Shown one piece after another: positions 16,948-61,865 of a stretch of DNA of 64,000 nt. The translations under genes were made by a program, and so were the position numbers. The notes beneath the pieces are model-generated. The model worked only from the letters and a program-made list of their open reading frames with translations. It ran no database searches and was not told where the DNA came from. This DNA comes from Kaistia dalseonensis (GTDB taxonomy: Bacteria > Pseudomonadota > Alphaproteobacteria > Rhizobiales > Kaistiaceae), in assembly GCF_030814715.1 (NCBI RefSeq), contig NZ_JAUSVO010000005.1, forward strand, positions 310,001-374,000, in the 5' to 3' direction. Each line of letters begins with the position of its first letter. Position 1 is the stretch's first letter.

Positions 16948-16990
16948 TTGACAGGATCGGCCATTCGCAAGATCGTTGATGGTCTAACAA
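16948..16990 (+). promoter_or_regulatory. Promoter and putative operator of the DUF1185 operon
   Basis: TTGACA (16948-16953) looks like a consensus -35 box. Seventeen nt later GATCGTTGATGGTCTAACAA (16971-16990) overlaps the expected -10 region. Read on the other strand this is TTGTTAGACCATCAACGATC, which matches a site in front of the BMP importer operon at 18 of 20 positions. The gene-free region 16756-17036 holds nothing else I can name. Confidence 0.6.
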
Positions 16991-17036
16991 GTTTGCACCC
17001 ACTAAAGCGCCATCGCCAGCCAGCCGGAGGTTCCTC

Positions 17037-17621
17037 ATGGTCGACATCAAGGTCAGGAAATTCGTCACCGTCGTCGAGGAAATCCTCCATGAAGGCGGTC
17101 CGCCTGTGGATGTTCCGCCGAAGCGCGCGGCCATCGCGGCCGTGATCGAGAACCCCTTCGCGGGCCGTTTCGTCGAGGACATTGTCGGCCTGATGGACGA
17201 TCTGAAGCCGCTCGGCCTGGACATGGCCGGGCGCCTGGTCGATGCGCTGGGCGGTGATCCCAAGGTCGTCGAGGGCTATGGCAAGGGCGCGATCGTTGGC
17301 GAGGCCGGCGAAATCGAGCATGGTGCGCTCTGGCATGTGCCCGGCGGCTATGCCATGCGCGAACTGCTCGGCGGCGCCAAGGCGATCGTTCCCTCGGCCA
17401 AGAAGGTCGGCACGCTCGGCACCAAGATCGACATTCCCATCACCCATATCGATGCTTCCTATGTGCGCAGCCATTTCGACGCGCTGGAGATCGGCATTGC
17501 CGATGCGCCGCGCCGCGACGAGATCGTGCTGGTGCTGGTGATGACCACAGGTCCGCGCGTGCATGCCCGCGTCGGCGGTCTCGCGGTCGCGGACATCAAG
17601 GTCGGGGACGGCCTGCGGTGA
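17037..17621 (+). CDS. Amino acid synthesis family protein (DUF1185), copy 1
   Basis: Cytoplasmic protein of 194 residues in Pfam family PF06684 (DUF1185), which is known structurally as a variant chorismate-mutase-like fold but has no established reaction. Family features are KFVTVVEEILHEGG at the N-terminus, AVIENPFAGRFVED near residue 35, GYGKGAIVGEAGEIEHGA near residue 80 and SYVRSHFDALE near residue 140. A strong GGAGG lies 6 nt before the ATG. Its stop overlaps the start of a second family member. The promoter carries the site shared with the nucleoside operon, so a role in the same pathway is inferred. Confidence 0.88.
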   Translation: MVDIKVRKFVTVVEEILHEGGPPVDVPPKRAAIAAVIENPFAGRFVEDIVGLMDDLKPLGLDMAGRLVDALGGDPKVVEGYGKGAIVGEAGEIEHGALWHVPGGYAMRELLGGAKAIVPSAKKVGTLGTKIDIPITHIDASYVRSHFDALEIGIADAPRRDEIVLVLVMTTGPRVHARVGGLAVADIKVGDGLR

Positions 17622-18202
17622 GCGCGCGCATCCGGAAGATCATCACCATCGTCGAGGAAACGCTGATCGAGGGCGGCAAGGCGGTTTCGCCGCCCACCCG
17701 GCGCGCCGCGGCTCTCGCGGTCATCGAGAACCCCTATGCGGGGCAATATGTCGAGGACCTGTCGCCGCTCTATGAGATCGGCGAGGAGCTGGGCGGCCTG
17801 CTTTCGGCCCGCGCCGTAGCCGCGCTCGGCGTTCCCGGCTCGAGCGTCGAGAGCTATGGCAAGGCCGCGGCGATCGGCGCCGATGGGGAGCTGGAGCACG
17901 GCGCCGCCATACTACACCCGAAGCTCGGCGCGCCGTTCCGCAAGGTGCTCGGCAAGGGCGCCGCGCTCATCCCCTCCTCCAAGAAGCGCACCGGTCCCGG
18001 CGCGCCGCTCGATATCCCGCTCGGCCACAAGGATGCGGCCTTTGTGCGGAGCCATTTCGACGGCATGGAGGTCAGCGTATCGGACGCGCCCCGTGCCGAC
18101 GAGATCCTCGTCGCCGTCGCCGTGACCGATTCCGGGCGCCCGCATGCGCGCGTGGGCGGTCTGAAGAAGGACGAGATCAAGGGCGAGGACGGCCTGCGAT
18201 AG
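17618..18202 (+). CDS. Amino acid synthesis family protein (DUF1185), copy 2
   Basis: Second DUF1185 protein, exactly the same length (194 residues) as the gene before it. It starts with GTG 17618 in a 4-nt GTGA overlap, so it is translationally coupled. The same blocks are conserved: KIITIVEETLIEGG, AVIENPYAGQYVED, SYGKAAAIGADGELEHGA, AFVRSHFDGME and a C-terminal HARVGGL...DGLR. The pair looks like an old tandem duplication that kept both copies, which suggests a hetero-oligomer. It ends 74 nt from the convergent ketopantoate-reductase-like gene. The reaction is unknown. Confidence 0.87.
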   Translation: MSARIRKIITIVEETLIEGGKAVSPPTRRAAALAVIENPYAGQYVEDLSPLYEIGEELGGLLSARAVAALGVPGSSVESYGKAAAIGADGELEHGAAILHPKLGAPFRKVLGKGAALIPSSKKRTGPGAPLDIPLGHKDAAFVRSHFDGMEVSVSDAPRADEILVAVAVTDSGRPHARVGGLKKDEIKGEDGLR

Positions 18203-18276: not shown

Positions 18277-19188
18277 TCAGGCTGCGTGCTTCGCCTGCGC
18301 CGCCTTGAGTTCGACCAGCTTCACCAGCACGTGCAGGGTTCGGTTGGCTGGTGTCGGAACGCCGAGTTCCTCGCCTTTCGCGACGACATAGCCGTTCAGA
18401 TGGTCGATTTCGCTCGTCCTGCCGCGGGCGAGATCCTGCGCGGTCGAGGAATACTGGCCGGGCATGGTCGCGGGAAGAGCCGCAACGATATCCCAGATAT
18501 TCGCCGGGACCGCGACGCCGGCGCGAGCCGCGACCGCGCGACACTCATCGACGACTTCCCGCATCAGCGCCGTGACGCCGGGCGCGACGGAGAACGTGCC
18601 ATAGGGCAGCTGCGAAATCGCCGAAATGGCGTTGAAGGTGCAGTTGATGATCAGCTTGGTCCAGAGCGCCGCAGCGACATCGTCTGAAATGCGGGTCGGA
18701 ATGCCGGCCTCTGCGAAGGCGGCCGCGATCGCGTCGTGTCCGGGGCCGGGACTGGCGACCAGTTCGCCGCGGCCGTGATGGCGCACATGGCCGGGCCCCG
18801 CCATTTCCGAGGCCACATAGACGACCACCGGAACAACGGGACGCCCCAGGACCGCCGCCAGCCGCTCGGCATTGTCGACACCGTTCTGTAGGCTCCACAG
18901 CGCCGTATCGGCGGCAAGGAACGGCGCGATATGTCGGCCGGCCTCGGCCGTATCGGTCGACTTGACGCAGAACAGCACGATGTCGGCGCCCGCGACACCG
19001 GCCGGCTCGCTTGTGGCCGTCACGGCGAGGCGCTCCGTCCTGCCCGCCATTTCGAGCACGAGGCCGTCGCTATTGATCGCCGCGACATGCCGGGGCCGGG
19101 CAATCAATGTTACGGAATGCCCCGCCCTGGCGAGCATGGCGCCATAGAAACAGCCGACCGCGCCGGCACCCATAACCGTGATTTTCAC
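18277..19188 (-). CDS. Ketopantoate reductase (PanE/ApbA) family protein
   Basis: NAD(P)H-dependent 2-oxoacid or aldehyde reductase of 303 residues. The dinucleotide motif GAGAVG is at residues 7-12 and the catalytic Lys at about 178 (ALWTKLIINCTFNAIS), followed by a helical C-terminal domain. It is the last gene of the nucleoside operon, 116 nt after the enamidase-like gene. PanE-family enzymes in catabolic operons are often not true PanE. If the enamidase call is right, it could reduce a formyl-dicarboxylate product such as 2-formylglutarate, a step known to use a related fold in nicotinate fermentation. That is inference; housekeeping pantothenate synthesis cannot be excluded. Confidence 0.85.
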   Translation of the reverse strand: MKITVMGAGAVGCFYGAMLARAGHSVTLIARPRHVAAINSDGLVLEMAGRTERLAVTATSEPAGVAGADIVLFCVKSTDTAEAGRHIAPFLAADTALWSLQNGVDNAERLAAVLGRPVVPVVVYVASEMAGPGHVRHHGRGELVASPGPGHDAIAAAFAEAGIPTRISDDVAAALWTKLIINCTFNAISAISQLPYGTFSVAPGVTALMREVVDECRAVAARAGVAVPANIWDIVAALPATMPGQYSSTAQDLARGRTSEIDHLNGYVVAKGEELGVPTPANRTLHVLVKLVELKAAQAKHAA

Positions 19189-19304
19189 ACTATCCCTCCC
19201 TCGAAGCCTGGGGCGGGATCTTATCGCCGCCGGCGCAGCCCGGCTCCGTCACGCCCGCATCGCGGCCATGACGAGAACGCATGACCGCGATGGGAGTGTC
19301 GTCG

Positions 19305-20498
19305 CTAGACGACCACCGCCATGGTGCTCGAAGGCGGCGTATTGCGCGAACGGCCGGTGCGGACGACACCGTCGATGATCGTCATGCTGATGCCGGGAAT
19401 ATCGCCGAGGCGGATGGCGTCCAGCAGCGTCGTGCCGGCCGAATGCTGGGGCTTGTCCATCAGCACGAAATCGGCCGAGCGGCCGATTTCGATCAATCCG
19501 CAATCGAGATCGCGCATGCGGGCGGTATTGCCGGTGGCAAAGCAGAACGCGATTTCCGGCGGGAGATTTCCGAGCGCCGCGAGATGCGCAATCGTGCGGA
19601 TGATGCCGAGCGGCTGCACGCCGGAGCCCGCGGGGCCATCGGTTCCGAGAATGATGCGGTCGAGCTGACCGAGTTCGCGCGCCGTGTTCAGCGTCAGGAG
19701 CGCCGCGCGGAGGTTGCCGTTATGGACGATCTCCAGGCCGCGGCCGCACTGCTCGCAGAGGCAGACGATCTGGTCGTCGGGCAGTGCCGTATGGCCGCCA
19801 TTGATATGGCCGATCACGTCCGTGTCGGCGGCGAGCACGACATCCTTGTCGATCAGTCCGGAGCCGGGGATCGAGGGGCCGCCGGTATGAATCGTCGAGA
19901 TCATGCCGTATTTGCGCGCCCAGGCGACCATCTGGCGCGCCGTCTCGCCATCCTTGACCGAGCCGAGCCCGACTTCACCCAGCATCTTGACGCCGGCACT
20001 GGCGAGATCGCGGAAATCCTCCTCGACCATGCCCTTTTCGATGATCGGCGCGCCGGCATGGACCTTCACGCCGGATGGGCGAAAGGCCGAAAACTGGCGT
20101 TGTGCCGAAATTGCGAGCGCCTTCAGGCCAATAATGTCGGTCGGCCGGCCGGGCGTATGGGCCTCGCCGGCGGAGATCATGGTGGTGACGCCGCCATGCA
20201 GCGTCGAATCGATCCAGCCGATCTGGTTCTGGCGCGGCGTCCAGTCGCCGGCGACCGGGTGGACGTGGCTGTCGATCAGACCCGGCGTGATCGGGGACCC
20301 CTTGGCGTCGACCAGCGTGGTCGCGCCCTCGATGTCGAGGTCCTTCTCGCGGCCGAAGGCGGTGATCCGGCCGTTCTCGGCAATGATCGTGTCGGCATCG
20401 AGGATCGGATTGGTGATATCGCCCGAGAGCATGAGGCCGATATTCTTGATGACGAGCTTGGTCGGTCCACCATTCGCGGCCGGTGCATCATGACTCAT
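19305..20498 (-). CDS. Enamidase-like amidohydrolase
   Basis: Metal-dependent amidohydrolase of 397 residues. The HxH metal motif is at residues 78/80 (LIDSHVHP), followed by GEVGLGSVK (likely bridging acidic residue), HTGGPSIPGSG, GHINGGHTALPDD and GTDGPAGSG near the C-terminus. These blocks and the SRNTPP tail resemble enamidase, which opens the ring of 6-oxo-tetrahydronicotinate to 2-formylglutarate and ammonia. ATG 20498 was chosen because the strand pattern of the small beta-sandwich begins directly after it. It lies between a MarR gene and a ketopantoate-reductase-like gene in the nucleoside operon. Another cyclic amide substrate is possible. Confidence 0.75.
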   Translation of the reverse strand: MSHDAPAANGGPTKLVIKNIGLMLSGDITNPILDADTIIAENGRITAFGREKDLDIEGATTLVDAKGSPITPGLIDSHVHPVAGDWTPRQNQIGWIDSTLHGGVTTMISAGEAHTPGRPTDIIGLKALAISAQRQFSAFRPSGVKVHAGAPIIEKGMVEEDFRDLASAGVKMLGEVGLGSVKDGETARQMVAWARKYGMISTIHTGGPSIPGSGLIDKDVVLAADTDVIGHINGGHTALPDDQIVCLCEQCGRGLEIVHNGNLRAALLTLNTARELGQLDRIILGTDGPAGSGVQPLGIIRTIAHLAALGNLPPEIAFCFATGNTARMRDLDCGLIEIGRSADFVLMDKPQHSAGTTLLDAIRLGDIPGISMTIIDGVVRTGRSRNTPPSSTMAVVV

Positions 20499-20540
20499 GG
20501 CAGTTCCTTTCGATCGCACGCCGCGCGGAAGGGCGCAGCA

Positions 20541-21092
20541 CTAATTGTCCGTGTTCGGTTCGCCATCGGCGACGCGAACCAGCATTTCCATGAACAGGGC
20601 GCGCTCGCTCGGCTTCAGCGGCGCGAGCACGCGGCGCCCGGCCTCGACGCTCTTGGCGAGAAGCGGCGCGGTGTAGCGCAGGCCCGCCTCCGACAGGCGG
20701 ATCAGCGACAGCCGCTGGTCCTCCGCAGAGGCAGATCGCTCGACGAGGCCGTTCTTGGCGAGCTTGCGGATCACGATGCTGATCGTGGATGGATCCATCG
20801 CGGTCAGCCGCCCGAGCTGGTTCTGCGAGACCTCGCCATGGCGCATGATCGTCGCGAGCGCGGCCATCTGCGTCGGCGTCAGGTCGTGCTCGCCCATGAC
20901 CTCCTGAAAGTGCATCGTCGCGCGCTGATGCGCCCGGCGGATAACGTGGGCAGGGTGGACGGTGAGCTCATAGCCGGACGAAGCGAACGCGTCCTGGACC
21001 CAGGCTTCCGAAAGCGCGGCCTCGGTCGCGCCGGAGGGTCCGTCCTCGTCCGGAACCATCGTCTCCGCCGCCACCTGCTTCTTCAATGCCAT
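20541..21092 (-). CDS. MarR family transcriptional regulator
   Basis: Dimeric winged-helix regulator of 183 residues. The DNA-binding core is MRHGEVSQNQLGRLTAMDPS, followed by TISIVIRKLAKNGLVERSAS and the wing EDQRLSLIRLSEAG. A 35-residue acidic N-terminal extension precedes the first helix. ATG 21092 has AAGGA 7 nt upstream. It sits inside the nucleoside operon between the amidase and enamidase genes, like the MarR-type regulators of nicotinate degradation clusters. It is the best local candidate to bind the 20-bp site found in front of three neighbouring transcription units. Confidence 0.9.
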   Translation of the reverse strand: MALKKQVAAETMVPDEDGPSGATEAALSEAWVQDAFASSGYELTVHPAHVIRRAHQRATMHFQEVMGEHDLTPTQMAALATIMRHGEVSQNQLGRLTAMDPSTISIVIRKLAKNGLVERSASAEDQRLSLIRLSEAGLRYTAPLLAKSVEAGRRVLAPLKPSERALFMEMLVRVADGEPNTDN

Positions 21093-21150
21093 CCGCCCGT
21101 CCTTGCATGCCATTCGGCGCGGCCTTCCGGCCGTCCGCGTCTTCGATCGT

Positions 21151-21795
21151 TCAAGCCGCGATCTGCTCGTTCTCGATCACCAGCCCCGATGTCAGGGCCG
21201 CCACGACGGCGGCGCTGTCGCTGACGACGCCGAAATGGGTGGCGATATCGTACAGCGTCGATTCCTGCTCGCGGGGGCCCGTGGCCGCGCAGCAATCGCG
21301 CGGCACCACGACCTCATAGCCGTTGAAGAAAGCGTCGTGAACCGTCGATCGCACGCAAATATTGGTCACGACCCCGAACACCACCAGTTGGTCGACGAGC
21401 ATGTCCTTCAGCACCAGGTCGAGATCGGTCTGGAAGAAGCTCGAATAGCGATGCTTGATGACGTGGATCTCGTCCTCGCGCGCGCCGAGGTCCTCGATGA
21501 TCTCGGTTGCCCAGGTGCCCTCGACGCCGTGCGGCGTGCGCTTCACCCATTCGCGGTCGCGGCGCATGTTCTTGCGATGGCTGTCATGGACCCAGATGAC
21601 CGGCGCGCCGACCTTGCGCGCGGCGTCGATCACGGCGAGCTGGGGGCCGACCAGCGTCTCGTAGCCGGGCAGGACCATCCGGCCGCCCGGCTTGCAGAAC
21701 TCGTTGATCATGTCGACCACGATCACCGCAGTGCGGGCGGGATCGAGCTTCGCCTGTTCGGCGTTCATGTGGGACGAGAAGACGTCGACGGACAT
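21151..21795 (-). CDS. Isochorismatase family cysteine hydrolase (amidase)
   Basis: Cysteine hydrolase of 214 residues. The catalytic triad is visible as Asp28 (VVDMINEF), Lys114 (VIKHRYSSF) and Cys147 (VVTNICVRST). The cis-peptide region GVVTNICV is typical. The family covers isochorismatase, nicotinamidase, maleamate, ureidoacrylate and N-carbamoylsarcosine amidohydrolases. The neighbours (nucleoside importer, nucleoside hydrolases, enamidase) favour an amidase on a base-derived compound, for example a nicotinamide- or maleamate-type step. There is no menaquinone or siderophore context. Exact substrate unknown. Confidence 0.85.
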   Translation of the reverse strand: MSVDVFSSHMNAEQAKLDPARTAVIVVDMINEFCKPGGRMVLPGYETLVGPQLAVIDAARKVGAPVIWVHDSHRKNMRRDREWVKRTPHGVEGTWATEIIEDLGAREDEIHVIKHRYSSFFQTDLDLVLKDMLVDQLVVFGVVTNICVRSTVHDAFFNGYEVVVPRDCCAATGPREQESTLYDIATHFGVVSDSAAVVAALTSGLVIENEQIAA

Positions 21796-21871
21796 TTTGG
21801 CTCCTCAGGTGAGTGTGCGTCAGTGGGTGATGCGAAGCTTAGGGCGCCAAATCACGTCCGCAACCCAAGCT

Positions 21872-21956
21872 CCGTCATCCCCGCGAAAGCGGGGATCCAT
21901 CAAGGCCTGAGACGCCTCAGGACTTGATGGATCCCGGGTCAAGCCCGGGATGACGG
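21872..21956. repeat. Dispersed palindromic repeat, class A, copy 1
   Basis: A paired element: CCGTCATCCCCGCGAAAGC... on the left and ...AAGCCCGGGATGACGG on the right. It forms a long cruciform with two internal hairpins and a central palindrome (GGCCTGAGACGCCTCAGG-like). It fills the 188-nt gap between the isochorismatase and nucleoside hydrolase genes. The same CCGTCAT...ATGACGG ends recur at 37394, 58898 and (as a variant) 61731. Confidence 0.85.
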
Positions 21957-21983
21957 CGTGTGGGTGAACGGACATAGCGTCAC

Positions 21984-22937
21984 CTAGTCTCGCAGCAGAG
22001 AATAAAGCAGATCGAAGAAGCGATCGGCATCGACTTCCTTCGCGATCTGGGCGTTGGGCGGCAGGCCGCGCTCGTTCCAGAAATCAGCCACCGTTGCGCC
22101 GAAGGTGTAGGTGCCAGTCAGGTCGACGCCGATATGGGCCGGGCGCGAGCGCACCAGAGTCGGATCGATGATCAGCGCCAGCGCCAGCGGATCGTGCAAC
22201 GCGCCGCCGACACCCATGGAATCGCGATGCAGCTTCTCGTAGAAGCGCAGCCAATCGAGCACGACGCGGCCGAGCTCGCTGTCGATCTTCTCAAATTCGG
22301 CATATTGCGGCTCCTCGACGAGCACCTGCATGGTGACATCGAGGCCGACCATGGTGATCGGCACGCCGCTGTCGAGCACGATCTTCAGCGCCTCCGGATC
22401 GCAGAAGGCGTTGAACTCGGTCGGCGTGATGATCTCGCTCTTGCGCCAGAAGACGCCGCCCATCCAGGTGATGTCTTTGATCTTCGGCAGCAGCTCGGGA
22501 TATTTCAGTACGAAGAGGCCGAGATTGCAGAGCGGGCCGGTCGCCACGATACGCAGCGGCTCGTCGCGCTCGCGCAGCGTCTTGGCGATGAAATCGACCG
22601 CATGCAGCTTCTCGACCGTCTTGGTTGCCTGCGGCAGATAGGGCGAGCCCTCGAGGCCGCTCGGGCCGTCGGCGGTGCCGAGCACCAGCGGGCGGGCGAG
22701 CGGGCGCACGCAGCCGGCCGCGACCGGGACATCGCCGGCGCCGATGAATTCCAGGATGCGCAGCGTGTTGGATACCGTCTTTTCCGGCTCGGCATTGCCG
22801 CAGACGACGGTGACGCCGAGAAGATCGATCGCCTTGGAGCGATGCGCCATCACAAGCGCGATCGCGTCGTCATGGCCGGGATCACAATCGAGGATGATCG
22901 GGGTCGGGCGGGTGGTGGTCATATCGGTATTCGTCAT
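21984..22937 (-). CDS. Nucleoside hydrolase (IUNH family), copy 1
   Basis: Calcium-dependent N-ribohydrolase of 317 residues that splits ribonucleosides to ribose and base. The N-terminal Asp cluster is DCDPGHDDAIAL (Asp17, Asp19, Asp23, Asp24); TGPLCNLGLF and WMGGVFW follow, with FNAFCDPEA in the middle and a C-terminal LHDPLALALII with the metal Asp. ATG 22937 has AGGGA upstream and lies 10 nt after the preceding nucleoside hydrolase. Of the two paralogous copies this one is the more canonical. The pair acts on the compound brought in by the operon's own BMP-type importer. Confidence 0.92.
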   Translation of the reverse strand: MTNTDMTTTRPTPIILDCDPGHDDAIALVMAHRSKAIDLLGVTVVCGNAEPEKTVSNTLRILEFIGAGDVPVAAGCVRPLARPLVLGTADGPSGLEGSPYLPQATKTVEKLHAVDFIAKTLRERDEPLRIVATGPLCNLGLFVLKYPELLPKIKDITWMGGVFWRKSEIITPTEFNAFCDPEALKIVLDSGVPITMVGLDVTMQVLVEEPQYAEFEKIDSELGRVVLDWLRFYEKLHRDSMGVGGALHDPLALALIIDPTLVRSRPAHIGVDLTGTYTFGATVADFWNERGLPPNAQIAKEVDADRFFDLLYSLLRD

Positions 22938-22947
22938 TTCCCTGCCC

Positions 22948-23958
22948 TCACGCGGCCGACTGATAGCGGACGATCGTGTCCTTGAAGAGCTGCATGAAGC
23001 GGCGTCCATCGACATCGGTGCACACGCGGGTGGTCTTCGGCCCGCCGCCCGGCAACAACTGGCGTCCGCGATAGGCGACCGTCTGGCCGCGTGCGATTCC
23101 CGGGTTGAGCACGATATCGACGAACATCGGCTCGCTCATGGTGCAGAGCGTCGGATCGAAGGCGAGCGCGACGGTGATGATATCGTCCATCGGGAAGCCG
23201 ACGAGATCGAAGAACTCGCGCCAGATGTCGATATAGATCGGAAAGCTGTCCTGCAGCATGGCGAGCACCGGATGATCGCCAGCGTCCTTCAGATCGGCCA
23301 GATCATCGCGGGTCAGCATGCTCGCCGCCGCGCGATTATCCTCGCAGACGTCGAGCGGCACCAGGATGGTCTCGACACCCTGGTTGAGTACGACGCGGGC
23401 GGCCTCAGGATCGGCCCAGATATTGTATTCGGAGAGCGGCGTGATGTTGCCGGGGGTGACGAAATTGCCGCCGAGCAGGACCATGCGCTTCAGCGCCGGG
23501 CCGATCTTCGGCTCCTGCAGGAACGCCATGGCGAGATTGGTCATCGGGCCGGTCACGACCATGGTGATCTCGCCGGGCGAACCCAGAACCGTGTCGATGA
23601 TGAAATCGACCGCATGCTTGTCGATGACCTTCAAGGTCGGCGTTGGCGCGGGCGGGTTGAACTTCTTCAGCCGGTCGCCGAAGCGCGCGACGAGCCGCTT
23701 CTCGAAATGAACCGGGGCCTCCATATCGGCCTTCGAATTGCCCACGATCGGGCGCCAGGCCCCTTTGGCGACCGGAATATCGCCACGGCCTGCCAGCGCC
23801 AGCGTGTTGAGCACGACATTGGTGACCTGCTCGATCGGACCGGCGGCACCAGTGCAGGTGGTGACGCCTTCGAGCTTGATCGACGGCGAAACCGCCGCGA
23901 AGAGCACCGCCAGAATGTCGTCGCCTGCGGAATCGACGTCGAGAATGATGCGTTCCAT
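22948..23958 (-). CDS. Nucleoside hydrolase (IUNH family), copy 2
   Basis: Second N-ribohydrolase, 336 residues. The metal cluster reads DVDSAGDD (Asp7, Asp9, Asp13, Asp14), so all four acidic residues are kept although the usual Pro-Gly turn is replaced by Ser-Ala-Gly. VVTGPMTNLAMAF, LLGGNF and YNIWADPEAA are family features. An insert rich in Lys and Pro near residues 80-105 (RFGDRLKKFNPPAPTP) is longer than in copy 1. It sits 2 nt after the upstream permease stop and 10 nt before copy 1. Two diverged copies suggest two related substrates or a modified nucleoside. Confidence 0.9.
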   Translation of the reverse strand: MERIILDVDSAGDDILAVLFAAVSPSIKLEGVTTCTGAAGPIEQVTNVVLNTLALAGRGDIPVAKGAWRPIVGNSKADMEAPVHFEKRLVARFGDRLKKFNPPAPTPTLKVIDKHAVDFIIDTVLGSPGEITMVVTGPMTNLAMAFLQEPKIGPALKRMVLLGGNFVTPGNITPLSEYNIWADPEAARVVLNQGVETILVPLDVCEDNRAAASMLTRDDLADLKDAGDHPVLAMLQDSFPIYIDIWREFFDLVGFPMDDIITVALAFDPTLCTMSEPMFVDIVLNPGIARGQTVAYRGRQLLPGGGPKTTRVCTDVDGRRFMQLFKDTIVRYQSAA

Positions 23959-23959
23959 T

Positions 23960-24952
23960 TTATCCCCTCGTCACGGCTTTTTCGGCGTCCGTGGCGGCGT
24001 TTGGTTTGACGGAAAGAGCGCGGCCCATCGAGGCGAGAGTTTCCTGGATGATGCGCGGACGCGCCCGGTAGGAGAGAGCGAACAGCGCAATCAGCGCCAC
24101 GAGATAGGGAACGGCGAGCACGAGATAGGACGAGATGCCGAAGGTCTGCAGGCGCAGCGACAGCGCATCCGAGAAACCGAACAGCAGGCATCCAAGCAGG
24201 ATCTTGAGCGGATCGCCATTGGAGAAGATCAGGATCGCCACGGCCATAAAGCCGCGGCCGGACGACATGTTCTCGGTGAACATGGTCGTGTAGCCGAGCG
24301 AAAGATGCGCGCCGGCAAGGCCCGCGAGCAGGCCGCAGAGCAGCGAGGAGACATAGCGGATGCGCGCGATCGAAATGCCGAGCGCTTCGGCCGCCTCCGG
24401 CTTCTCGCCGACGACGCGGATATAAAGTCCGAGCCGCGAGCGATTGTAGAACAGGATCAGCACCGGAACGAGGATGAAGGCGACATAGACGAGCGGCGTA
24501 TAGCCCGAGATCATCTGGCCGAACCAGCCGAGATCGCGCGCATTGGGCAGCCGTAGCACCGGCAGGCCGACCAGGCCGTGGCCGAAGATCGAGCCGCGCG
24601 TGCCGAAGATCGCCTTGAGGAGCGAGACCGTCATGCCGCCCGCCAGGATATTGAGGGCGAGGCCGACCACGACCTCGTTCGCCTTGAAGGTGACGACGAG
24701 GAGCGCGAAGACGAAGGCGAGCACGAGGGCCGCCGCCACGCCACAGAGCACGCCGATCCAGGGCGAACCGGTGAAGATCGTGCCGATCACAGCGAAGAAG
24801 GCGCCGACCAGCATCTGGCCTTCAAGCCCGATATTGAAGATGCCGGCCTTGGTGGTAAACGAGCCGCCGAGGGCGACGAGCAGGATCGGCGCGGTGGTGC
24901 GCAAGGTTGCGACCACGAGGGCGACATTGAAGAGACGTTCTAGAACTTCCAT
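23960..24952 (-). CDS. ABC transporter permease, BMP/nucleoside type (NupC/YufQ-like)
   Basis: Inner-membrane permease of 330 residues with about 8-9 hydrophobic helices. FTTKAGIFNIGLEGQMLVGA (near residue 35) and VVGEKPEAAEALGISIARIR (near residue 185) are conserved motifs of the nucleoside/riboflavin/BMP importer permeases. It overlaps the partner permease gene by 13 nt. Its stop is 2 nt from the nucleoside hydrolase start, tying transport directly to hydrolysis. Confidence 0.92.
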   Translation of the reverse strand: MEVLERLFNVALVVATLRTTAPILLVALGGSFTTKAGIFNIGLEGQMLVGAFFAVIGTIFTGSPWIGVLCGVAAALVLAFVFALLVVTFKANEVVVGLALNILAGGMTVSLLKAIFGTRGSIFGHGLVGLPVLRLPNARDLGWFGQMISGYTPLVYVAFILVPVLILFYNRSRLGLYIRVVGEKPEAAEALGISIARIRYVSSLLCGLLAGLAGAHLSLGYTTMFTENMSSGRGFMAVAILIFSNGDPLKILLGCLLFGFSDALSLRLQTFGISSYLVLAVPYLVALIALFALSYRARPRIIQETLASMGRALSVKPNAATDAEKAVTRG

Positions 24953-25983
24953 CGCCGCTCCCCCGCCGTCGAATCCGAAGCGCGTCGTTTGATCGTGATC
25001 TGTGCTGAAACCGCGAGGATGATCAGGGCCTGGATGACCGTGATGATCTCGCGCGAGGCGGTGGTGTCGACTTCGAGCAGAAGCGAGCCGCTCCTCAGCG
25101 CGCCGAAGAAGAGCGCCGTGAAGATCGTGCCGATCGGGCTGCCATTGGCGAGCAGCGCCGCGATCACGCCATCGAAGCCAAAGCCCGGCGCGAAGCCTTC
25201 CATGAAGCGGTGATGCACGCCGAGCGCCTCGACGCCACCGGCAAGGCCACCGACGGCGCCCGATGCGAGCAGCACGACGAAGATCTGCCGCTTGATGTCG
25301 ATGCCGCCATATTCGGCGAATTTCGGGTTGGCCCCCATCTCGCTCACCGCATAGCCGCGCGACATGCGCGTGAAGAAGAAATGCACGGCGCAGGCCAGCA
25401 CCAGGCCGATGATCAGCCCCCAGTTCAGACGCGAGAACGAGAACAGTTCCGGCAGATAGGCGCTCTCATGGATCGGCGGCGTCTCGGAAAGGCCGCCGGG
25501 GCGCTTGAAGATGTTGATGGTCAGGTAAGAGGTGACCAGGATCGCGACATAGTTCGCCAGGATCGTCGAGACGACCTCGTTGGTGTTGTAGCGGGCACGG
25601 AAGAAGGCCGGGATCGCAATCCAGGCCATGCCGGCGATAATCGCGACCGCCATGGCCAGCAGCAGATGCAGCACGGGCGGCAGGTTGAACGAGAAACCGA
25701 CCCAGGTCGCCCAGAAGCCGCCCATGAAGAGCTGGCCCTCAATGCCGATATTGAACAGGCCGGCACGGAGCGAGATGCAGGCGGCGATGCCGCAGATCAG
25801 GATTGGCGTCGTCTGCAACAGCGTGCCGGCGATGCGCTCGGGATTGCCGAAGGCGCCGTTCAAGAGCGTGACGAGGACGCGCAGGGGGCTCTCGTCGACC
25901 GTCAGGATGACGATCGCGCCGAGTCCGAGCGCGAAGAGAATGGCCAGCGCCTGGCCCAGAAGGCTGTCAATGCGATCCGACAT
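24940..25983 (-). CDS. ABC transporter permease, BMP/nucleoside type (NupB/YufP-like)
   Basis: Inner-membrane permease of 347 residues, partner of the overlapping gene. SLRAGLFNIGIEGQLFMGGF (near residue 70) and AVSEMGANPKFAEYGGIDI (near residue 220) mark the family. Its ATG shares one base with the ATPase stop (TGATG), showing translational coupling. With the ATPase, the second permease and the BMP-type binding protein it makes a complete importer. Confidence 0.92.
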   Translation of the reverse strand: MSDRIDSLLGQALAILFALGLGAIVILTVDESPLRVLVTLLNGAFGNPERIAGTLLQTTPILICGIAACISLRAGLFNIGIEGQLFMGGFWATWVGFSFNLPPVLHLLLAMAVAIIAGMAWIAIPAFFRARYNTNEVVSTILANYVAILVTSYLTINIFKRPGGLSETPPIHESAYLPELFSFSRLNWGLIIGLVLACAVHFFFTRMSRGYAVSEMGANPKFAEYGGIDIKRQIFVVLLASGAVGGLAGGVEALGVHHRFMEGFAPGFGFDGVIAALLANGSPIGTIFTALFFGALRSGSLLLEVDTTASREIITVIQALIILAVSAQITIKRRASDSTAGERRWKF

Positions 25984-27521
25984 CAGGCGGCTCCCCGCGC
26001 TGAGGCGCCGGAGCCGGGGCGCACGCCGGCCATCAGCATGCCGATTTCCTCCTCGTCGACACGGTCGCCCGGCAATTCGCCCATGACGGTGCCGTTGAAC
26101 ATCACGAGGATGCGGTCGGCGAGCGCGGAGAGCTCGTCGAGCTGGACCGAGATCAGCAGGATCGCCTTGCCGGCCTCGCGCTGGCGCATGATCTCGCCAT
26201 GGATCGCCTCCTGCGCGCCAATGTCGACGCCGCGCGTCGGCTGGTCGATCAGCAGAAAGCCGGCATCGCCGGAAAATTCGCGGGCGAGCACCACCTTCTG
26301 GATATTGCCGCCGGAGAGGCTCTTCACCGGCGATTCCGGGCCTCGGGCGCGGATGTCGAAACGCTTGATCAGCGCCGTCGTCTGTTCCGTCAGGTAGCGG
26401 TGATCGATAATGCCGCTTCGCGACCAGGGCTTCTGGTCCTGCCGACCCATCAACATGTTGAGCGCGATCGAGGCGTTGCGATCGACGCCACGCACGAGGC
26501 GGTCGCCCGGCACATGCGCAATGCCGGCAGCGCGGATGGCACGCGCCGAAAGCCCGGTGATCGGTCGTCCCTGCAGCCTGATCGCGCCATGACTGGATGG
26601 ACGCAGGCCCGACAGCACTTCAGCGAGTTCGGTCTGGCCGTTGCCCGCGACGCCGGCAATGCCAACGATCTCGCCCGCCCTGACCTTGAACGAGACGCCG
26701 CGCAGCGCCTGGACCCGGCGCTCGTCGCGACACCAGAGGTCCTCGACCTCGAGCACGGTCTTGCCCGATGTCGGCGGACGGGGGCGGCGATCGAAGGAGA
26801 CGAAGCGGCCGACCATCATCTGAACGAGATCGGACTTGGTCAGTTCGGCCGTCGGCCGCGTCGCGACTTCCTTGCCATGGCGCAGCACCGTGACCGTATC
26901 GGAGACCTCCATCACCTCTTCCAGATGATGCGAGATGAACAGCACCGTCATGCCCTGGGCGACAAAGCCGCGAAGTGTCTGGAAGAGTTCGCGGCTTTCC
27001 TGCGGCGTCAGCACGGCCGTCGGCTCGTCGAGAATGATCGTCCGCGCGCCGCGCACCAGCACCTTGAGGATCTCGATCCTCTGTTCAATGCCGACGGAGA
27101 GAAGCCCGACGCGCTCACTCGGATCGACCTGCAGGCCGAATTGCTTCGAGAGGGATGCCGTCCTTTCGATCTGCGCCTTGTGGTCGATCAGCCCACCCTT
27201 GCGGATCTCCATGCCGAGGAAGACATTTTCAGCCACCGTCAGCGACGGCACGAGCTTGAAGTGCTGGTGCACCATGCCGATCCCGGCGGCGATGGCGGCT
27301 GCCGGATTGGGCAGGATCTTCTTCTCGCCATCGATCCAGATCTCGCCCTCATCGGGCTGCAACAGGCCGAAGAGCACATTCATCAGTGTCGTCTTGCCGG
27401 CGCCGTTCTCGCCAATGATCGCGTGAATCCGGCCGCGTTCGACGGCGAGGTTCACGCCTTCATTGGCGACGAACGAACCGAACCGCTTGGTGATCGATTT
27501 GAGCTCGATGGCGAAGGGCAT
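25983..27521 (-). CDS. ABC transporter ATPase, BMP/nucleoside type (NupA/YufO-like)
   Basis: Cytoplasmic double-domain ATPase of 512 residues. NBD1 has Walker A GENGAGKT at 37-44, signature LSVGIEQRIEIL and Walker B TIILDEPTAVL. NBD2 starts near residue 255 and has a degenerate P-loop (GVAGNGQTE) with signature LSGGNIQKVVLAR. This asymmetry is normal for the family. It powers the two downstream permeases. A 202-nt gap with a palindromic repeat separates it from the upstream binding-protein gene. Confidence 0.93.
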   Translation of the reverse strand: MPFAIELKSITKRFGSFVANEGVNLAVERGRIHAIIGENGAGKTTLMNVLFGLLQPDEGEIWIDGEKKILPNPAAAIAAGIGMVHQHFKLVPSLTVAENVFLGMEIRKGGLIDHKAQIERTASLSKQFGLQVDPSERVGLLSVGIEQRIEILKVLVRGARTIILDEPTAVLTPQESRELFQTLRGFVAQGMTVLFISHHLEEVMEVSDTVTVLRHGKEVATRPTAELTKSDLVQMMVGRFVSFDRRPRPPTSGKTVLEVEDLWCRDERRVQALRGVSFKVRAGEIVGIAGVAGNGQTELAEVLSGLRPSSHGAIRLQGRPITGLSARAIRAAGIAHVPGDRLVRGVDRNASIALNMLMGRQDQKPWSRSGIIDHRYLTEQTTALIKRFDIRARGPESPVKSLSGGNIQKVVLAREFSGDAGFLLIDQPTRGVDIGAQEAIHGEIMRQREAGKAILLISVQLDELSALADRILVMFNGTVMGELPGDRVDEEEIGMLMAGVRPGSGASARGAA

Positions 27522-27553
27522 GGGGTGACGATCCGTGCGGGCGAACGCTTTCT

Positions 27554-27710
27554 AAACCTCCCCCTTGAGGGGAGGTCGAAGGCGCCGAGCGAAGCGACAG
27601 CGGCTTCGGGAGGGGGGTGCTTCTGCGAAAGGGCCGAAGCCTTCGCCGGCCAAGAGCCCCCTCCCCAAAACCGCAACGCGGTTTTGACCCTCCCTCAAGG
27701 GGAGGGTTTA
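27554..27710. repeat. Dispersed palindromic repeat, class B, copy 1
   Basis: The left part starts AAACCTCCCCCTTGAGGGGA and the right part ends CTCAAGGGGAGGGTTTA, so the ends are inverted repeats. Inside the right part AAAACCGC (27667-27674) pairs with GCGGTTTT (27678-27685) around AAC. It lies between the BMP binding-protein gene and its ATPase gene. The right half is nearly identical to the element at 37269 apart from this inner stem. Confidence 0.85.
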
Positions 27711-27723
27711 GAAAGAAAGAGTA

Positions 27724-28734
27724 CTACTTCACCGTCGCGACCGTGATCTTGCCGTCGATCACATCGGTCTTGAGTGCTTCGAGCCTGGCCTTCACATCGG
27801 CCGGAATCTTGTCCACCACCTGCGGGCAGAGCAGCAATTCGACGCCGCCCGACTTCAGATCATAAGTGTGGATGCTGCCCGGCTCGATGCCCTTGCCGTC
27901 GACCACGTCCTTGACCAGGCTGTAGACGGCCACGTCGGCCTTCTTGAGCATGCTCGCCATGACATGGCCCGGTGCGACGTTGCACTGGTCGATATCGACG
28001 CCGATCGAGTATTTGTCGGCCGCAGCGCTCGCCTGCAGCACGCCCTCGCCGGTCGGGCCGGCGACGTTGTAGACAATGTCGGAGCCCTGGCCGTAGAGCG
28101 CCATGGTCAGTTCGCTGCCCTTGGCGGGATCGTCGAAGGTACCGGCAAAGACGGAATCAAGCCTGATATCGGGAGCCGCGGTCTTGGCGCCCTGCTCATA
28201 GCCGGCGAGGAAGTCGCGGATCACGGGGATGTCGCGGCCGCCAACAAAGCCGATCGCCTTGCCATCGCCGAGGCCCTCGACCGCGCTGCCCTTCTCGGCC
28301 ATCAGCGCTGCGAGCGCGCCCGCCATGAACGAACCCTGGTTCTGGGCGAAATTGGCGTAGATGATCTGCTTGGAATCCAGCACGCCGTCGATAAAGACGA
28401 ATTTGGTATTCGGATAGGCGGCGGCGGTTTTCTGCAGCGCGTCGACAAGTTCCCAGCCCATCACGAAGACCAGGTCATACTCGCCGCTTTTGGCGATGTT
28501 GTTGAACTGCTCTTCATAATCGAGCGCACGATTGCCCGTGTCGACGAGCTTCACTTTGACGCCGAGATCCTTCTCGGCCTTCTTCAGGCCATTGACGATC
28601 GATACGCCGAAGCCTTGGGCGAAATAGCCCGAGATGGCGGCGATATGGACGTCCTTGGCGAGCGCGGCCTGGCTTGCGAGCGCAAAGGCCGTGGCGCCGC
28701 AGAGCGCGACAAGACGACGGGACCAACTGGACAT
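27724..28734 (-). CDS. BMP family ABC transporter substrate-binding protein
   Basis: Periplasmic binding protein of 336 residues in the BMP/PnrA-like family, which binds nucleosides or related compounds. A Sec signal peptide (cleavage after SQAALA, near residue 26) is followed by KDVHIAAISGYFAQGFG, VFVMGWELVDALQK, FIDGVLDSKQ, GFVGGRDIPVIRDFLAGYEQ and IVYNVAGPTGEGVLQA. There is no lipobox. ATG 28734 was chosen because of the signal peptide. It is first in the ten-gene operon, and a 20-bp putative operator lies about 100 nt upstream. It is clearly diverged from the other two BMP proteins here, so its ligand probably differs. Confidence 0.9.
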   Translation of the reverse strand: MSSWSRRLVALCGATAFALASQAALAKDVHIAAISGYFAQGFGVSIVNGLKKAEKDLGVKVKLVDTGNRALDYEEQFNNIAKSGEYDLVFVMGWELVDALQKTAAAYPNTKFVFIDGVLDSKQIIYANFAQNQGSFMAGALAALMAEKGSAVEGLGDGKAIGFVGGRDIPVIRDFLAGYEQGAKTAAPDIRLDSVFAGTFDDPAKGSELTMALYGQGSDIVYNVAGPTGEGVLQASAAADKYSIGVDIDQCNVAPGHVMASMLKKADVAVYSLVKDVVDGKGIEPGSIHTYDLKSGGVELLLCPQVVDKIPADVKARLEALKTDVIDGKITVATVK

Positions 28735-28833: not shown

Positions 28834-28880
28834 GATCGTTGATGGTCATACAATCCTGCGCGAGTTTGAAATTTTGTCAA
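28834..28880 (-). promoter_or_regulatory. Promoter and putative operator for the BMP importer operon
   Basis: On the minus strand TTGACA (28880-28875) is followed 21 nt later by TTGTATGACCATCAACGATC (28853-28834). AGGATT at the 17-nt spacing could be the -10 box, so the site would lie over the start of transcription. The match to the site at 29174 is 17 of 20, and to the DUF1185 promoter site 18 of 20. Confidence 0.6.
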
Positions 28881-29144: not shown

Positions 29145-29193
29145 TTGACAAAGAGCGAAACCGGCGCTCAGACTTGTATGATCATCAATGATA
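29145..29193 (+). promoter_or_regulatory. Promoter and putative operator for the epimerase-SDR operon
   Basis: TTGACA (29145-29150) is followed 23 nt later by TTGTATGATCATCAATGATA (29174-29193), which contains the perfect palindrome ATGATCAT (29178-29185). The site mirrors the one at 28834-28853 and points towards the epimerase gene. Confidence 0.58.
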
Positions 29194-29318: not shown

Positions 29319-30155
29319 ATGATCGTCGCGGTGACTGGATCGAGCGGACTTCTCGGACGCGCGATCGTGGATGCCCTGATGGCGGCCGGACATGAGGTGC
29401 GCGGCATAGACACCGTGCCGGCACGCACCGCCGTCACCTCGCACCTGACCGCCGACCTGACCGATTTCGGCGAGATGGTCATGGCGCTCAAGGGCGCCGA
29501 TGTCGTCGTCCATGGCGCCGCTATTCCGCGGCCAACGGGACGAACGGCGACGGACGTGTTCTCGACCAATATCGCGCTCGCCTACAATGCCGTCGAAGCC
29601 TGCGTCGTGCTCGGCATCAGGCGGTTGATCTATGCTTCGTCCTTCAGCGTGCTCGGCTTTCCCTTCTTCGTGAAGCCGATCGACATTCATTACCTGCCGG
29701 TCGACGAGGCACATCCCAACGCGCCGCAGGATGCCTATGCGCTGTCGAAGACGCTCGGCGAGGACATCATCGACGCGGCCGTGCGGCGCGGCGCGCTGGA
29801 CGCTGTGAGCCTGCGCATGCCGTGGATCCAGAGCGCCGAGACCTTCCTGAGGGAAGTCGGTCCACGCCGCGCCGGCAAGGATTCGGGCCGCGACCTCTGG
29901 AGCTATATCGATGCGCGCGATGCCGCCGCCGCCTTTTTGGCCGCAGTCGAGGGCAAGACGACGGGCCATGTCCGCCTCTTCCTGAGCGCCGCCGACACTT
30001 ATAGCGAGACGCCGACCGCCGATCTCATCCAGGCCGCCTTTGGCAATCTTCCCCTCAAGAAGCCGTTGCCCGGCCACGCGGCCGTAATCGATACCGATGC
30101 GGCGCGCGCGGCGATCGGCTTTGTACCCAAGCATTCCTGGCGGGAGTATCAGTGA
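29319..30155 (+). CDS. NAD(P)-dependent epimerase/dehydratase (extended SDR)
   Basis: Cytoplasmic NAD(P)-binding enzyme of 278 residues. TGSSGLLG is at residues 6-13, HGAAIPRPTG near 63, the catalytic region SSFSVLG near 106 and YALSK near 145 (Tyr and Lys). This is the extended-SDR pattern of UDP-sugar epimerases and related sugar dehydrogenases. A strong AAGGAG ribosome site precedes it. It is coupled to the SDR gene by a TGATG junction and divergent from the nucleoside operon. It may act on the released sugar or a side-chain product; the substrate is unknown. Confidence 0.88.
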   Translation: MIVAVTGSSGLLGRAIVDALMAAGHEVRGIDTVPARTAVTSHLTADLTDFGEMVMALKGADVVVHGAAIPRPTGRTATDVFSTNIALAYNAVEACVVLGIRRLIYASSFSVLGFPFFVKPIDIHYLPVDEAHPNAPQDAYALSKTLGEDIIDAAVRRGALDAVSLRMPWIQSAETFLREVGPRRAGKDSGRDLWSYIDARDAAAAFLAAVEGKTTGHVRLFLSAADTYSETPTADLIQAAFGNLPLKKPLPGHAAVIDTDAARAAIGFVPKHSWREYQ

Positions 30156-53358: not shown

Positions 53359-53364
53359 GGCCTT

Positions 53365-53400
53365 TCGCCGCCCCGCCCGCGACCGCAGGCGGGGCGGCGA
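53365..53400 (+). terminator. 13-bp perfect hairpin between BMP gene and ATPase
   Basis: TCGCCGCCCCGCC (53365-53377) pairs perfectly with GGCGGGGCGGCGA (53388-53400), starting 7 nt after the binding-protein stop. Only a short TCTTC follows, so it is more likely an mRNA stabiliser or partial terminator, giving more binding protein than ATPase. Confidence 0.6.
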
Positions 53401-53463
53401 TCTTCATGTTCGCCGCGCGTCCAGACCGGACCTGCGTCCAAACCAACAAGCATCCTGGCCGAC

Positions 53464-58821: not shown

Positions 58822-58897
58822 GGCGCGGCCTCCCCGCTCGGGATGGTCCGCTCGGTCGCGCCGCTCTCCTCGCAACGGTACGAAACCCGCCCCGTTT

Positions 58898-59012
58898 CCG
58901 TCATCCCGGGCGAAGCGAAGCGAAGACCCGGGACCCATTCAGCCGAAGCCGCTGTCGTCGTAATCACCAGCAATTGCGGCTGGATGGGTCCCCGCTTTCG
59001 CGGGGATGACGG
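58898..59012. repeat. Dispersed palindromic repeat, class A, copy 3
   Basis: CCGTCATCCCGGGCGAAGC at the left and CGCTTTCGCGGGGATGACGG at the right, with ACCCATTCAGC and GCTGGATGGGT as an inner inverted pair. It lies between the two permease genes of the third BMP importer, in a 250-nt gap. The right end is identical to that of copy 2 over 20 bases. Confidence 0.85.
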
Positions 59013-59071
59013 CCTGTGAATTGGGACGGGCTGGTGTGCTGTTCTGTAACGAACCGAGAGAAACGCATTCA

Positions 59072-61707: not shown

Positions 61708-61730
61708 CGATATTGTGATCGACCACTCCG

Positions 61731-61839: not shown

Positions 61840-61865
61840 CTGTGGTTTCCGAGGCGGCTCTTCGC

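Follow-up and report, generated by a model that had tools for sequence, protein, structure and literature searches.

Which compound is taken up and degraded by an operon that combines a nucleoside importer and two nucleoside hydrolases with a homologue of the ring-opening enzyme enamidase? The question is raised by a locus of Kaistia dalseonensis lying in the 64,000-nucleotide stretch of DNA that was analysed here (the window). Ten ORFs, all on the minus strand, occupy positions 18277–28734, and the ORF list of the window confirms the one-strand operon, gene order and coordinates given in a preliminary description. From the binding protein onwards, these ORFs encode the BMP/PnrA-like periplasmic nucleoside-binding protein (27724–28734; Pfam Bmp, 191.5 bits; PDB 7x0r, 143.2 bits, and 2fqw, 109.3 bits), the ABC ATPase (25983–27521), permease A (24940–25983) and permease B (23960–24952) of a BMP-type importer, two nucleoside hydrolases, NH1 (22948–23958) and NH2 (21984–22937; the pair has IU_nuc_hydro scores of 294.3 and 244.4 bits), an isochorismatase-fold amidase, ISO (21151–21795; Isochorismatase, 148.4 bits), a MarR-family regulator (20541–21113; MarR_2, 54.1 bits), the enamidase homologue ENA (19305–20519; Amidohydro_1, 45.5 bits) and KPR, a member of the ketopantoate-reductase family (18277–19188; ApbA/ApbA_C, 131.1/115.8 bits; TIGR00745, 262.2 bits with a cutoff of 141.35). 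Pfam was run on seven of the ten genes and confirmed all seven, while the ATPase and the two permeases were assigned by translations and synteny, so that the importer comprises a Bmp domain protein (Pfam and PDB matches), an ATPase and two permeases (ORFs and synteny). Gaps and overlaps are short, the longest gaps being 202 bp (BMP to ATPase) and 188 bp (NH2 to ISO). The window also carries two more BMP-type importers and another nucleoside hydrolase.

The operon core named in the preliminary description is conserved (see below), but two conserved gene pairs just outside the interval, which belong to the same system, had been left out. On one side lie, on the plus strand, the tandem PF06684 (AA_synth/DUF1185) paralogues AAS1 (17037–17621; 244.6 bits) and AAS2 (17618–18202; 251.5 bits). 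On the other side, also on the plus strand, are EPI (29319–30155), an extended SDR and proposed C6 dehydrogenase (PDB 4id9, 74.0 bits; uronate dehydrogenase 6mfh, 48.0 bits), and its partner SDR (30152–30979), a classical short-chain dehydrogenase by its PDB relatives.

As had been proposed, ENA falls in the enamidase branch and not among unrelated amidohydrolases. It aligns end to end with the enamidase 2VUN (381.7 bits over residues 20–401, the next PDB match reaching 31.4 bits) and keeps HVH, the E of GEVGLG, HTGG, HINGG and D, which we take to be the metal and active-site residues of enamidase. The ENA genes of related bacteria are part of Azorhizobium-type nicotinate clusters, where they accompany a homologue of 6-hydroxynicotinate reductase (HNR); these clusters also carry ferredoxin-reductase genes and, in some cases, nicotinate-hydroxylase-like genes. 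AAS1 adjoins ENA or stands near it in many nicotinate-type clusters and is a candidate for the step after ring opening.

The other catalytic genes are less uniform. NH2 is RihA-like (about 239 bits to 1yoe/3g5i), has both DxDxxxDD and the catalytic His-Asp, and shows DCDPGHDD and LHDP throughout its alignment (19 of 19 rows). NH1 still belongs to the IU_nuc_hydro fold family by Pfam and has FPMDD[IV] in 20 of 20 rows, with no catalytic His before the conserved Asp; relative to 6ba0 (128.6 bits), Asp replaces the catalytic His of xHDP and Ala a conserved Asn, residues that presumably have catalytic or conserved roles in nucleoside hydrolases. With the usual catalytic His missing, NH1 may not be a hydrolase at all. 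ISO scores below the nicotinamidase (PncA) cutoff (PRK11609, 52.1 versus 174 bits), its best NCBIfam model being RutB (114.9 bits, cutoff 377.95). The preliminary description had KPR reducing the aldehyde product; KPR adjoins ENA in only four of the 13 Kaistia ENA loci read (G000, which is K. dalseonensis, G001, G006 and G013), and we dropped it from the core.

The order from the BMP gene to ENA is complete in six other Kaistia (G001, G004, G005, G006, G008 and G013) and in G015 and G022, which represent other genera of the same family; this recurrence in eight further genomes places the arrangement far beyond chance and bears out its predicted conservation. NH1 lies at a separate locus in six, probably seven, Kaistia, and the co-occurrence of importer, nucleoside hydrolase, amidase and enamidase holds even where the genes are unlinked. 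Homology searches of 101 genomes, all of which were kept in the co-occurrence counts, found a close ENA (at least 68%) in 24, an AAS2 match in all 24 of these and in 18 others, NH1 in 16, ISO orthologues in 17 and EPI (E ≤ 1e-50) in 16, so that EPI is present in 16 of 17 genomes with ISO versus none of 84 without it. The ENA, AAS2 and EPI counts refer to candidates scored, which for some genomes were part of the first-look candidates, as in the hydroxylase and class-wide NH1 searches below; the relatives' genes came from an in-house codon-usage caller, with approximate starts and some short or odd genes possibly missing. ENA (at least 44% identity), NH1, ISO, AAS2 and EPI were not found at the thresholds used in 11 other family members. 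A class-wide search, in which up to five candidates from each genome were scored, found NH1 in K. dalseonensis only (1 of 385 genomes), and thus no NH1 lineage outside the family. SDR adjoins EPI in nine of ten further genomes in which the EPI locus was read, the exception being G017, and EPI is mostly found among sugar-transport genes, which speaks against the catabolic reading given below.

These operons also have a predicted operator in common. One 20-bp palindrome is shared by the promoters of the importer/hydrolase operon (28835–28854; 26.4 bits, a perfect pattern match), of AAS1–AAS2 (16972–16991; 24.4 bits, one mismatch), both in the training set, and of the divergent EPI–SDR operon (29173–29192; 18.2 bits, outside the training set), and we propose that the MarR-family protein reads it. 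In four species it also precedes an operon for an acyl-CoA dehydrogenase and a glutarate-type CoA-transferase (GCDH–SugCT; G001, G006, G008 and G013), whose promoters had contributed no site to the matrix. Sites outside the training set were likewise found at unlinked BMP operons in six species (G007 being only probably unlinked). All 15 perfect pattern matches in ten genomes lie at regulon promoters. The motif reached an EM score of 182.6 versus 31.3–36.9 in three simple letter shuffles, run from 60 starting seeds versus 150 for the real set; part of the real score comes from orthologous promoters within the 32 regions, and it is the sharing between different operons that matters. No site above 11 bits was seen at the GCDH promoter of G015 or the NH1 locus of G010, and the only GCDH site of G004 lies inside a gene. 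With two mismatches allowed, the pattern gave 7–30 sites per genome in 13 Kaistia versus 1–10 in the control, and such sites were rejected as new regulon members because they are too noisy; of those listed for four genomes, the one near the nicotinate hydroxylase was followed up (see below).

From the computed gene set, distribution, linkage, operator and indistinguishability of ENA (below), we infer, with a probability of about 0.58, one MarR-type regulon for the breakdown of a nucleoside derived from nicotinamide, via enamidase and towards glutarate; the substrate and each of the reactions are part of this inference. By its family, the BMP-type ABC importer would take up the nucleoside; EPI and SDR may raise C6 to the oxo level, converting a cyclic hemiaminal into a lactam; NH1 and/or NH2, again by family, would release ribose; and ISO, by family and context, would hydrolyse the carboxamide. 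ENA would then convert 6-oxo-1,4,5,6-tetrahydronicotinate to 2-formylglutarate, as close homology and context suggest, and AAS1/AAS2 could act on the open-chain product. Finally, glutarate would be activated by a succinate-glutarate-type CoA-transferase and oxidised by a glutaryl-CoA-type acyl-CoA dehydrogenase. The L037 proteins are putatively of this glutarate type, with scores below the curated cutoffs: 594.6 bits versus 750 for the transferase and, for the dehydrogenase, 226.2 versus 470 for glutaryl-CoA dehydrogenase, its best model being FadE (252.6 versus 600). A homologue of the L037 transferase was found in 13 of 14 Kaistia at E ≤ 1e-100, the exception being G007.

Does the ring arrive aromatic? 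The co-occurrence of 6-hydroxynicotinate reductase that the preliminary description had suggested looking for holds in K. dalseonensis, which has an HNR homologue on another contig (C1) and a cytochrome-fused nicotinate hydroxylase (63%) elsewhere on C1, and fails in the 13 other Kaistia, G015 and G022, where HNR gave no match at E ≤ 1e-10. Overall, HNR was found in nine of the 24 close-ENA genomes and in 18 genomes in total, seven of which have no ENA at 44% or above. HNR itself matches no Pfam or NCBIfam model, and we identify it provisionally by context and from PMC3511419 rather than by the Eubacterium barkeri sequence. The hydroxylase search, which covered the cytochrome-fused type and left out G022, found none in the 13 other Kaistia, apart from a 37% match to the cytochrome part in G004. 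NH1 and ISO are present in all 15 genomes with ENA and no HNR; for NH1 this compares with one of nine genomes that have both ENA and HNR (Fisher p = 1.2e-5, uncorrected for kinship), but since the 15 genomes come from one family and 13 of them from one genus, the contrast represents hardly more than one or two evolutionary events. Among 80 named loci, many of which end at contig ends, HNR was present in 56, PF06684 in 63 and NH1 in five, and HNR and NH1 never occurred together.

Thus, plain nicotinamide or nicotinate riboside appears insufficient in the sister genomes unless other enzymes prepare the ring, and the missing HNR homologue suggests that in 13 of 14 Kaistia and the two other genera the ring arrives reduced or is reduced while ribosylated. 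We take NAD(P)H-hydrate-type nucleosides as the leading candidate substrate, the likeliest natural input being the nucleoside that corresponds to NAD(P)H hydrate (NADHX) or to dihydronicotinamide. The alternative that fares best starts from an aromatic pyridine nucleoside (nicotinamide, nicotinate or 6-oxo-nicotinamide riboside), which would pass through nucleoside hydrolase and ISO, then through an unrelated hydroxylase and reductase, to ENA. An unrelated 6-hydroxynicotinate reductase may exist in the HNR-lacking genomes, G017 has ISO and EPI clustered with a Mo hydroxylase and HNR, and in K. dalseonensis a third nucleoside hydrolase with an operator-like site (18.6 bits) adjoins the nicotinate hydroxylase, whose promoter has one of 16.9 bits. 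Operator-like sites before the hydroxylase genes, together with HNR and the hydroxylase, suggest that in this species ENA may act in ordinary nicotinate breakdown as well. However, with HNR and the cytochrome-fused hydroxylase missing from the same 13 Kaistia, and with EPI, SDR and a Gfo/Idh protein as the only oxidoreductases besides acyl-CoA dehydrogenase at the operator promoters examined (the K. dalseonensis hydroxylase aside), this route seems doubtful.

It is unlikely that ENA has shifted to another N-heterocycle, so that the nucleoside would not be pyridine-derived while its ring fragment still led to glutarate or a close relative. Enamidase is one branch of the versatile amidohydrolase superfamily, and distant ENA homologues (45–46%; L041 and L043) do have different neighbours. 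Yet no alignment column separates the 59 HNR-linked from the 14 HNR-lacking ENA rows (G007 left out, loci of one species fetched twice counted among the rows), a separating column being one with at most two residue types per group, none shared, and no gaps, and ENA is co-regulated with glutaryl-CoA-type genes in four species. Ordinary purine or pyrimidine salvage beside a nicotinate remnant, which would fit the resemblance of NH2 to the pyrimidine hydrolase RihA and the additional importers and hydrolase of the window, is very improbable given that NH1, ISO and ENA accompany one another in genomes where they are unlinked too, under one common operator, and that the 11 family members mentioned above lack all five genes at the thresholds used.

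Catabolism of a nicotinamide-derived nucleoside thus remains our preferred reading. Tentatively, and at well under even odds, Kaistia might degrade the nicotinamide ring while it is ribosylated: since a ribosyl-pyridinium is already activated, ordinary dehydrogenases could reduce and hydrate it, SDR and EPI acting at NAD(P)H potential by way of 6-hydroxy- and then 6-oxo-tetrahydronicotinamide riboside, with ribose and ammonia removed afterwards. The Mo hydroxylase and ferredoxin-dependent reductase would then be replaced, and damaged NAD(P)H (NADHX) would be a nutrient. More generally, a vitamin-B3-type nucleoside is apparently taken up by these soil bacteria, which would remove its sugar and open its ring with the enzyme that acts on niacin in other bacteria, mostly in the absence of the two ring-preparing enzymes. 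This suggests that NAD breakdown products are consumed by a route not yet described. A literature search limited to open-licence papers yielded no described pathway with this gene set, and to our knowledge no bacterial route has been described in which nucleosides derived from nicotinamide are consumed by way of enamidase. If correct, our reading would explain what becomes of the NAD(P)H hydrates and the reduced nicotinamide ribosides that dying cells release, would reveal a bypass of both ring-preparing enzymes of nicotinate breakdown, and would place two orphan dehydrogenases and the PF06684 family in a testable context.

How does this system compare with known ones? ENA is homologous over its full length to the E. 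barkeri enamidase (2VUN), but the anaerobic E. barkeri pathway runs via 2-hydroxymethylglutarate, whereas Kaistia carry CoA genes of putative glutarate type. Of the two hydrolases, NH2 has all the motifs checked of the inosine-uridine nucleoside hydrolases (RihA, 3g5i; 6ba0), from which NH1 departs at the His and Asn positions described above. NADHX repair by NAXD/NAXE (PMC11715087) deals with hydrated NAD(P)H and acts on the intact cofactor, whereas the proposed Kaistia regulon would consume the nucleoside. The closest likeness is to the nicotinate cluster of Azorhizobium/Bradyrhizobium (Kitts 1992, cited through PMC3511419), which, like the SG-6C cluster and its route via glutarate, is outlined in PMC3511419: ENA, PF06684 genes, a MarR-type regulator and, putatively, the glutarate route are shared. 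Those clusters contain HNR and the hydroxylase, in many cases along with an ABC importer of the branched-chain type, whereas the Kaistia feeder consists of a BMP nucleoside importer, two nucleoside hydrolases and an amidase, in sister genomes that lack HNR and the hydroxylase.

The ten genes at 18277-28734 of the window were confirmed as minus-strand open reading frames in the order of the preliminary description: the nucleoside-binding protein (BMP) of an ABC importer, its ATPase and two permeases, a diverged (NH1) and a RihA-like (NH2) nucleoside hydrolase, an isochorismatase-fold amidase (ISO), a MarR regulator, an enamidase homologue (ENA) and a PanE-like enzyme. Pfam and NCBIfam bore out the named families for seven of the ten; the ATPase and the two permeases were assigned from translations and synteny. 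Two PF06684 genes (AAS1 and AAS2, 17037-18202) face the end of this operon, and a dehydrogenase pair (EPI and SDR, 29319-30979) lies divergently beyond its start. The proposed pathway keeps its outline of import, sugar removal, deamidation and ring opening with an originally incomplete membership, and the PanE step probably does not belong to it. Judging from translations, the window of this genome (5.18 Mb, 11 contigs) also holds another nucleoside-hydrolase-like gene (48331-49287), two further BMP-type importers (52300-57004 and 57871-62801) and amidohydrolase-like genes at 46986-48329 and 62974-63999.

ENA aligned end to end with the enamidase 2VUN at 381.7 bits, the next PDB sequence scoring 31.4 bits, which places it in the enamidase branch, as had been proposed, and not among generic amidohydrolases. 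It is 73-77% identical to proteins of Xanthobacter, Afipia, Bradyrhizobium and Chelatococcus, whose common neighbours are PF06684 genes, a MarR gene, a ferredoxin reductase and a ∼490-residue 'DACPVMCYI' protein (HNR); some of these clusters also carry [2Fe-2S] and cytochrome-fused molybdenum hydroxylase genes. A further common neighbour is presumably a UPF0280-like protein. Neither Pfam nor NCBIfam returned a match to HNR at the chosen thresholds; from its annotation we take it to be a 6-hydroxynicotinate reductase homologue. The name also draws on PMC3511419, which reports a homologue of this kind (42%).

Searches of 101 genomes (the source genome, G000, and 100 relatives) with ENA, AAS2, HNR, NH1, ISO and EPI found a close ENA (at least 68% identity) in 24 genomes, all of them among the 42 with PF06684 proteins. 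Three genomes (G031, G046 and G082) had only a distant ENA (44-46%), G064 an additional distant copy and G097 broken pieces. HNR was present in 18 genomes, together with a close ENA in nine (G000, G017, G061, G064, G073, G076, G084, G093 and G095) and with a distant one in two (G031 and G046). The other seven (G037, G045, G058, G063, G089, G090 and G094) lacked an ENA at 44% or more, so that HNR does not accompany ENA in every genome. NH1, ISO and EPI occurred in 16, 17 and 16 genomes, respectively, EPI being confined to ISO-positive genomes and missing among them only from G007, a 720-contig assembly. All 15 genomes with a close ENA and no HNR, which are the sister Kaistia G001-G013 and two other genera of the family (G015 and G022), encode NH1 and ISO; among the nine with both ENA and HNR, NH1 is found only in G000 and ISO only in G000 and G017. 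The expected co-occurrence with a 6-hydroxynicotinate reductase homologue is seen in G000 and not in those 15 relatives. This complementary distribution of HNR and NH1 is one of our two strongest new results, although it rests on one family, and its Fisher's exact p of 1.2e-5 is no fair probability because 13 of the 15 HNR-lacking genomes belong to one genus. The 11 other family members lacked the whole set at the cutoffs applied, and across the class NH1 was seen in one of 385 genomes, the source genome itself, among the best five or fewer candidates scored per genome.

Comparison of 59 HNR-linked ENA sequences with 14 from HNR-lacking genomes (14 of the 15, G007 being left out) showed 160 of 397 positions invariant in both groups and no column that separated them, which argues that the Kaistia enzyme would act on the same compound, 6-oxo-1,4,5,6-tetrahydronicotinate. 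For the second, distant ENA class (45-46%; L041:8941-10726 and L043:8404-10191), near which one PF06684 gene and an EthD-like protein are encoded, a different ring substrate is possible.

An expectation-maximization search of 32 upstream regions yielded the palindrome ATTGTT.GA..TC.AACAAT, of which MarR is the proposed reader, with a score of 182.6; three shuffles of the letters scored 33.6, 31.3 and 36.9, although they had fewer starting seeds (60 vs 150) and orthologous promoters inflate the real score. A matrix built from 13 of its sites and scanned over 39 loci (788,962 positions) found 60 sites above 16 bits, of which 47 are distinct because loci from the same genome share sequence. All 60 precede BMP, AAS1, ISO, ENA, the divergent CUT1-EPI-SDR operon or an acyl-CoA dehydrogenase gene putatively of the glutaryl-CoA type (GCDH). 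BMP operon sites that had not been used in the matrix scored 19.5 (G002), 19.9 (G003), 19.5 (G009), 18.2 (G011), 15.7 (G012) and 15.1 bits (G007); G002, G003 and G011 were in the search set, while G009, G012 and G007 were in neither set but are close relatives. The NH1 locus of G010 had no site above 11 bits. Across ten whole genomes (∼49 Mb), all 15 perfect matches to the degenerate pattern fell at regulon promoters, as did 30 of the 40 matches with one mismatch or fewer; the reversed pattern matched once. Matches at the BMP, AAS1, ISO and ENA promoters were expected because the pattern was made from those sites; the new findings are the lack of perfect matches anywhere else in the ten genomes and the matches at promoters of GCDH and a putative succinate-glutarate-type CoA-transferase gene (SugCT), perfect in G006 and G013 and with one mismatch in G001 and G008, as confirmed by gene calls. 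G009, outside the ten, had one perfect match (C1:767030) that was assigned to none of these promoters. The stretch fetched around SugCT had no site above 11 bits in G015 and a single one, inside a gene, of 12.9 bits in G004. The other strong new result is this predicted common operator, which would place the nucleoside importer under one control with the ring-opening genes and, in four species, with glutaryl-CoA-type genes as well. A different palindrome (ATCGTTAAAATTGGAACGAT) is common to two Kaistia, G001:C5:314260 and G008:C28:76556 (a one-mismatch match).

NH1 is unlinked to ENA and ISO in six Kaistia (G002, G003 and G009-G012), being on a different contig or hundreds of kb away, and the same is probably true of the very fragmented G007. 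The unit of BMP, ATPase, two permeases, NH1 and NH2 surrounded NH1 in all four loci read (G002, G003, G009 and G011), and G007 has the same BMP-to-NH2 order on a truncated contig in which the ATPase is partly masked. In those six genomes ENA, the PF06684 pair and ISO are found together with GCDH and SugCT. The best model for the G003 SugCT was succinate-glutarate CoA-transferase (594.6 bits, cutoff 750), and its GCDH scored 252.6 against FadE (cutoff 600) and 226.2 against glutaryl-CoA dehydrogenase (cutoff 470); since no model reaches its cutoff, the glutarate role is put forward as an inference, which fits the known pathway. Just 5' of GCDH-SugCT in G001, G006, G008 and G013 are three genes classed from translations (L158:5065-7749 and L189:9101-11937) as membrane desaturase-like, Rieske ferredoxin-like and FAD reductase-like; the operator there either touches the end of the third gene or overlaps it.

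The source genome has a second set of feeder genes. Its HNR lies with GCDH/SugCT genes at C1:1.036-1.044 Mb, a separate cluster with weaker operator variants at the HNR and ferredoxin-reductase promoters (13.7 bits each), and its nicotinate hydroxylase at C1:1.26 Mb has an operator-like promoter site (16.9 bits) and adjoins a third nucleoside hydrolase, also with such a site (18.6 bits). Hence G000 may also consume ordinary nicotinate or nicotinate nucleosides, and this keeps alive the alternative of an aromatic nucleoside, nicotinamide or nicotinate riboside, as the imported substrate, with the ring prepared by an unrelated hydroxylase and reductase. Among 31 genomes, which did not include G022, G000 was the only Kaistia with the cytochrome-fused hydroxylase (63%) at E ≤ 1e-60, apart from a G004 sequence that matches the cytochrome part at 37%. 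The third hydrolase (L188:5810-8818) is 77% identical to one inside the G001 EPI operon, and amidase-like and nucleoside-deoxyribosyltransferase-like genes, recognized from translations, also stand beside the hydroxylase.

If ENA needs a tetrahydro-oxo ring and the HNR homologue is absent, as in the 15 relatives, the ring would either enter reduced or be reduced by another enzyme. The favoured candidate input is a nucleoside of the NAD(P)H-hydrate type; hydrates of NAD(P)H contain a 6-hydroxy-1,4,5,6-tetrahydronicotinamide ring. Repair of NADHX is the subject of PMC11715087. NH2 keeps the canonical motifs, and in NH1, a candidate hydrolase, all 20 of the sequences aligned have Asp in place of the catalytic His. 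ISO, although below the curated cutoffs of the nicotinamidase, RutB and biuret hydrolase models, fits carboxamide removal. Conversion of 6-hydroxy to 6-oxo, the step then lacking, would be oxidation of a cyclic hemiaminal.

EPI shares an operon with sugar-type transport genes in 8 of the 11 genomes whose EPI loci were read and may for this reason act on a sugar. It is kept without them in G000, G003 and G017, adjoining ISO in the latter two, which speaks for the ring pathway, short of proof. In its usual form (L162:2876-9939 and L170:2311-10264; members from translations) the operon encodes a CUT1 sugar-type binding protein, a TIM-barrel protein, two permeases and a Gfo/Idh protein, with EPI-SDR usually at its end, divergent to BMP or ISO; only EPI-SDR remain in G000 and G003, and only EPI in G017. 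Five PDB relatives of EPI were found at E ≤ 1e-10, the best being an unspecified SDR (4id9, 74.0 bits) and the second a uronate dehydrogenase (6mfh, 48.0 bits); 3ay3 (46.1 bits), titled epimerase/dehydratase, is presumably another uronate dehydrogenase. Uronate dehydrogenases convert a cyclic hemiacetal to a lactone, a reaction that would be a close chemical parallel to the proposed hemiaminal oxidation.
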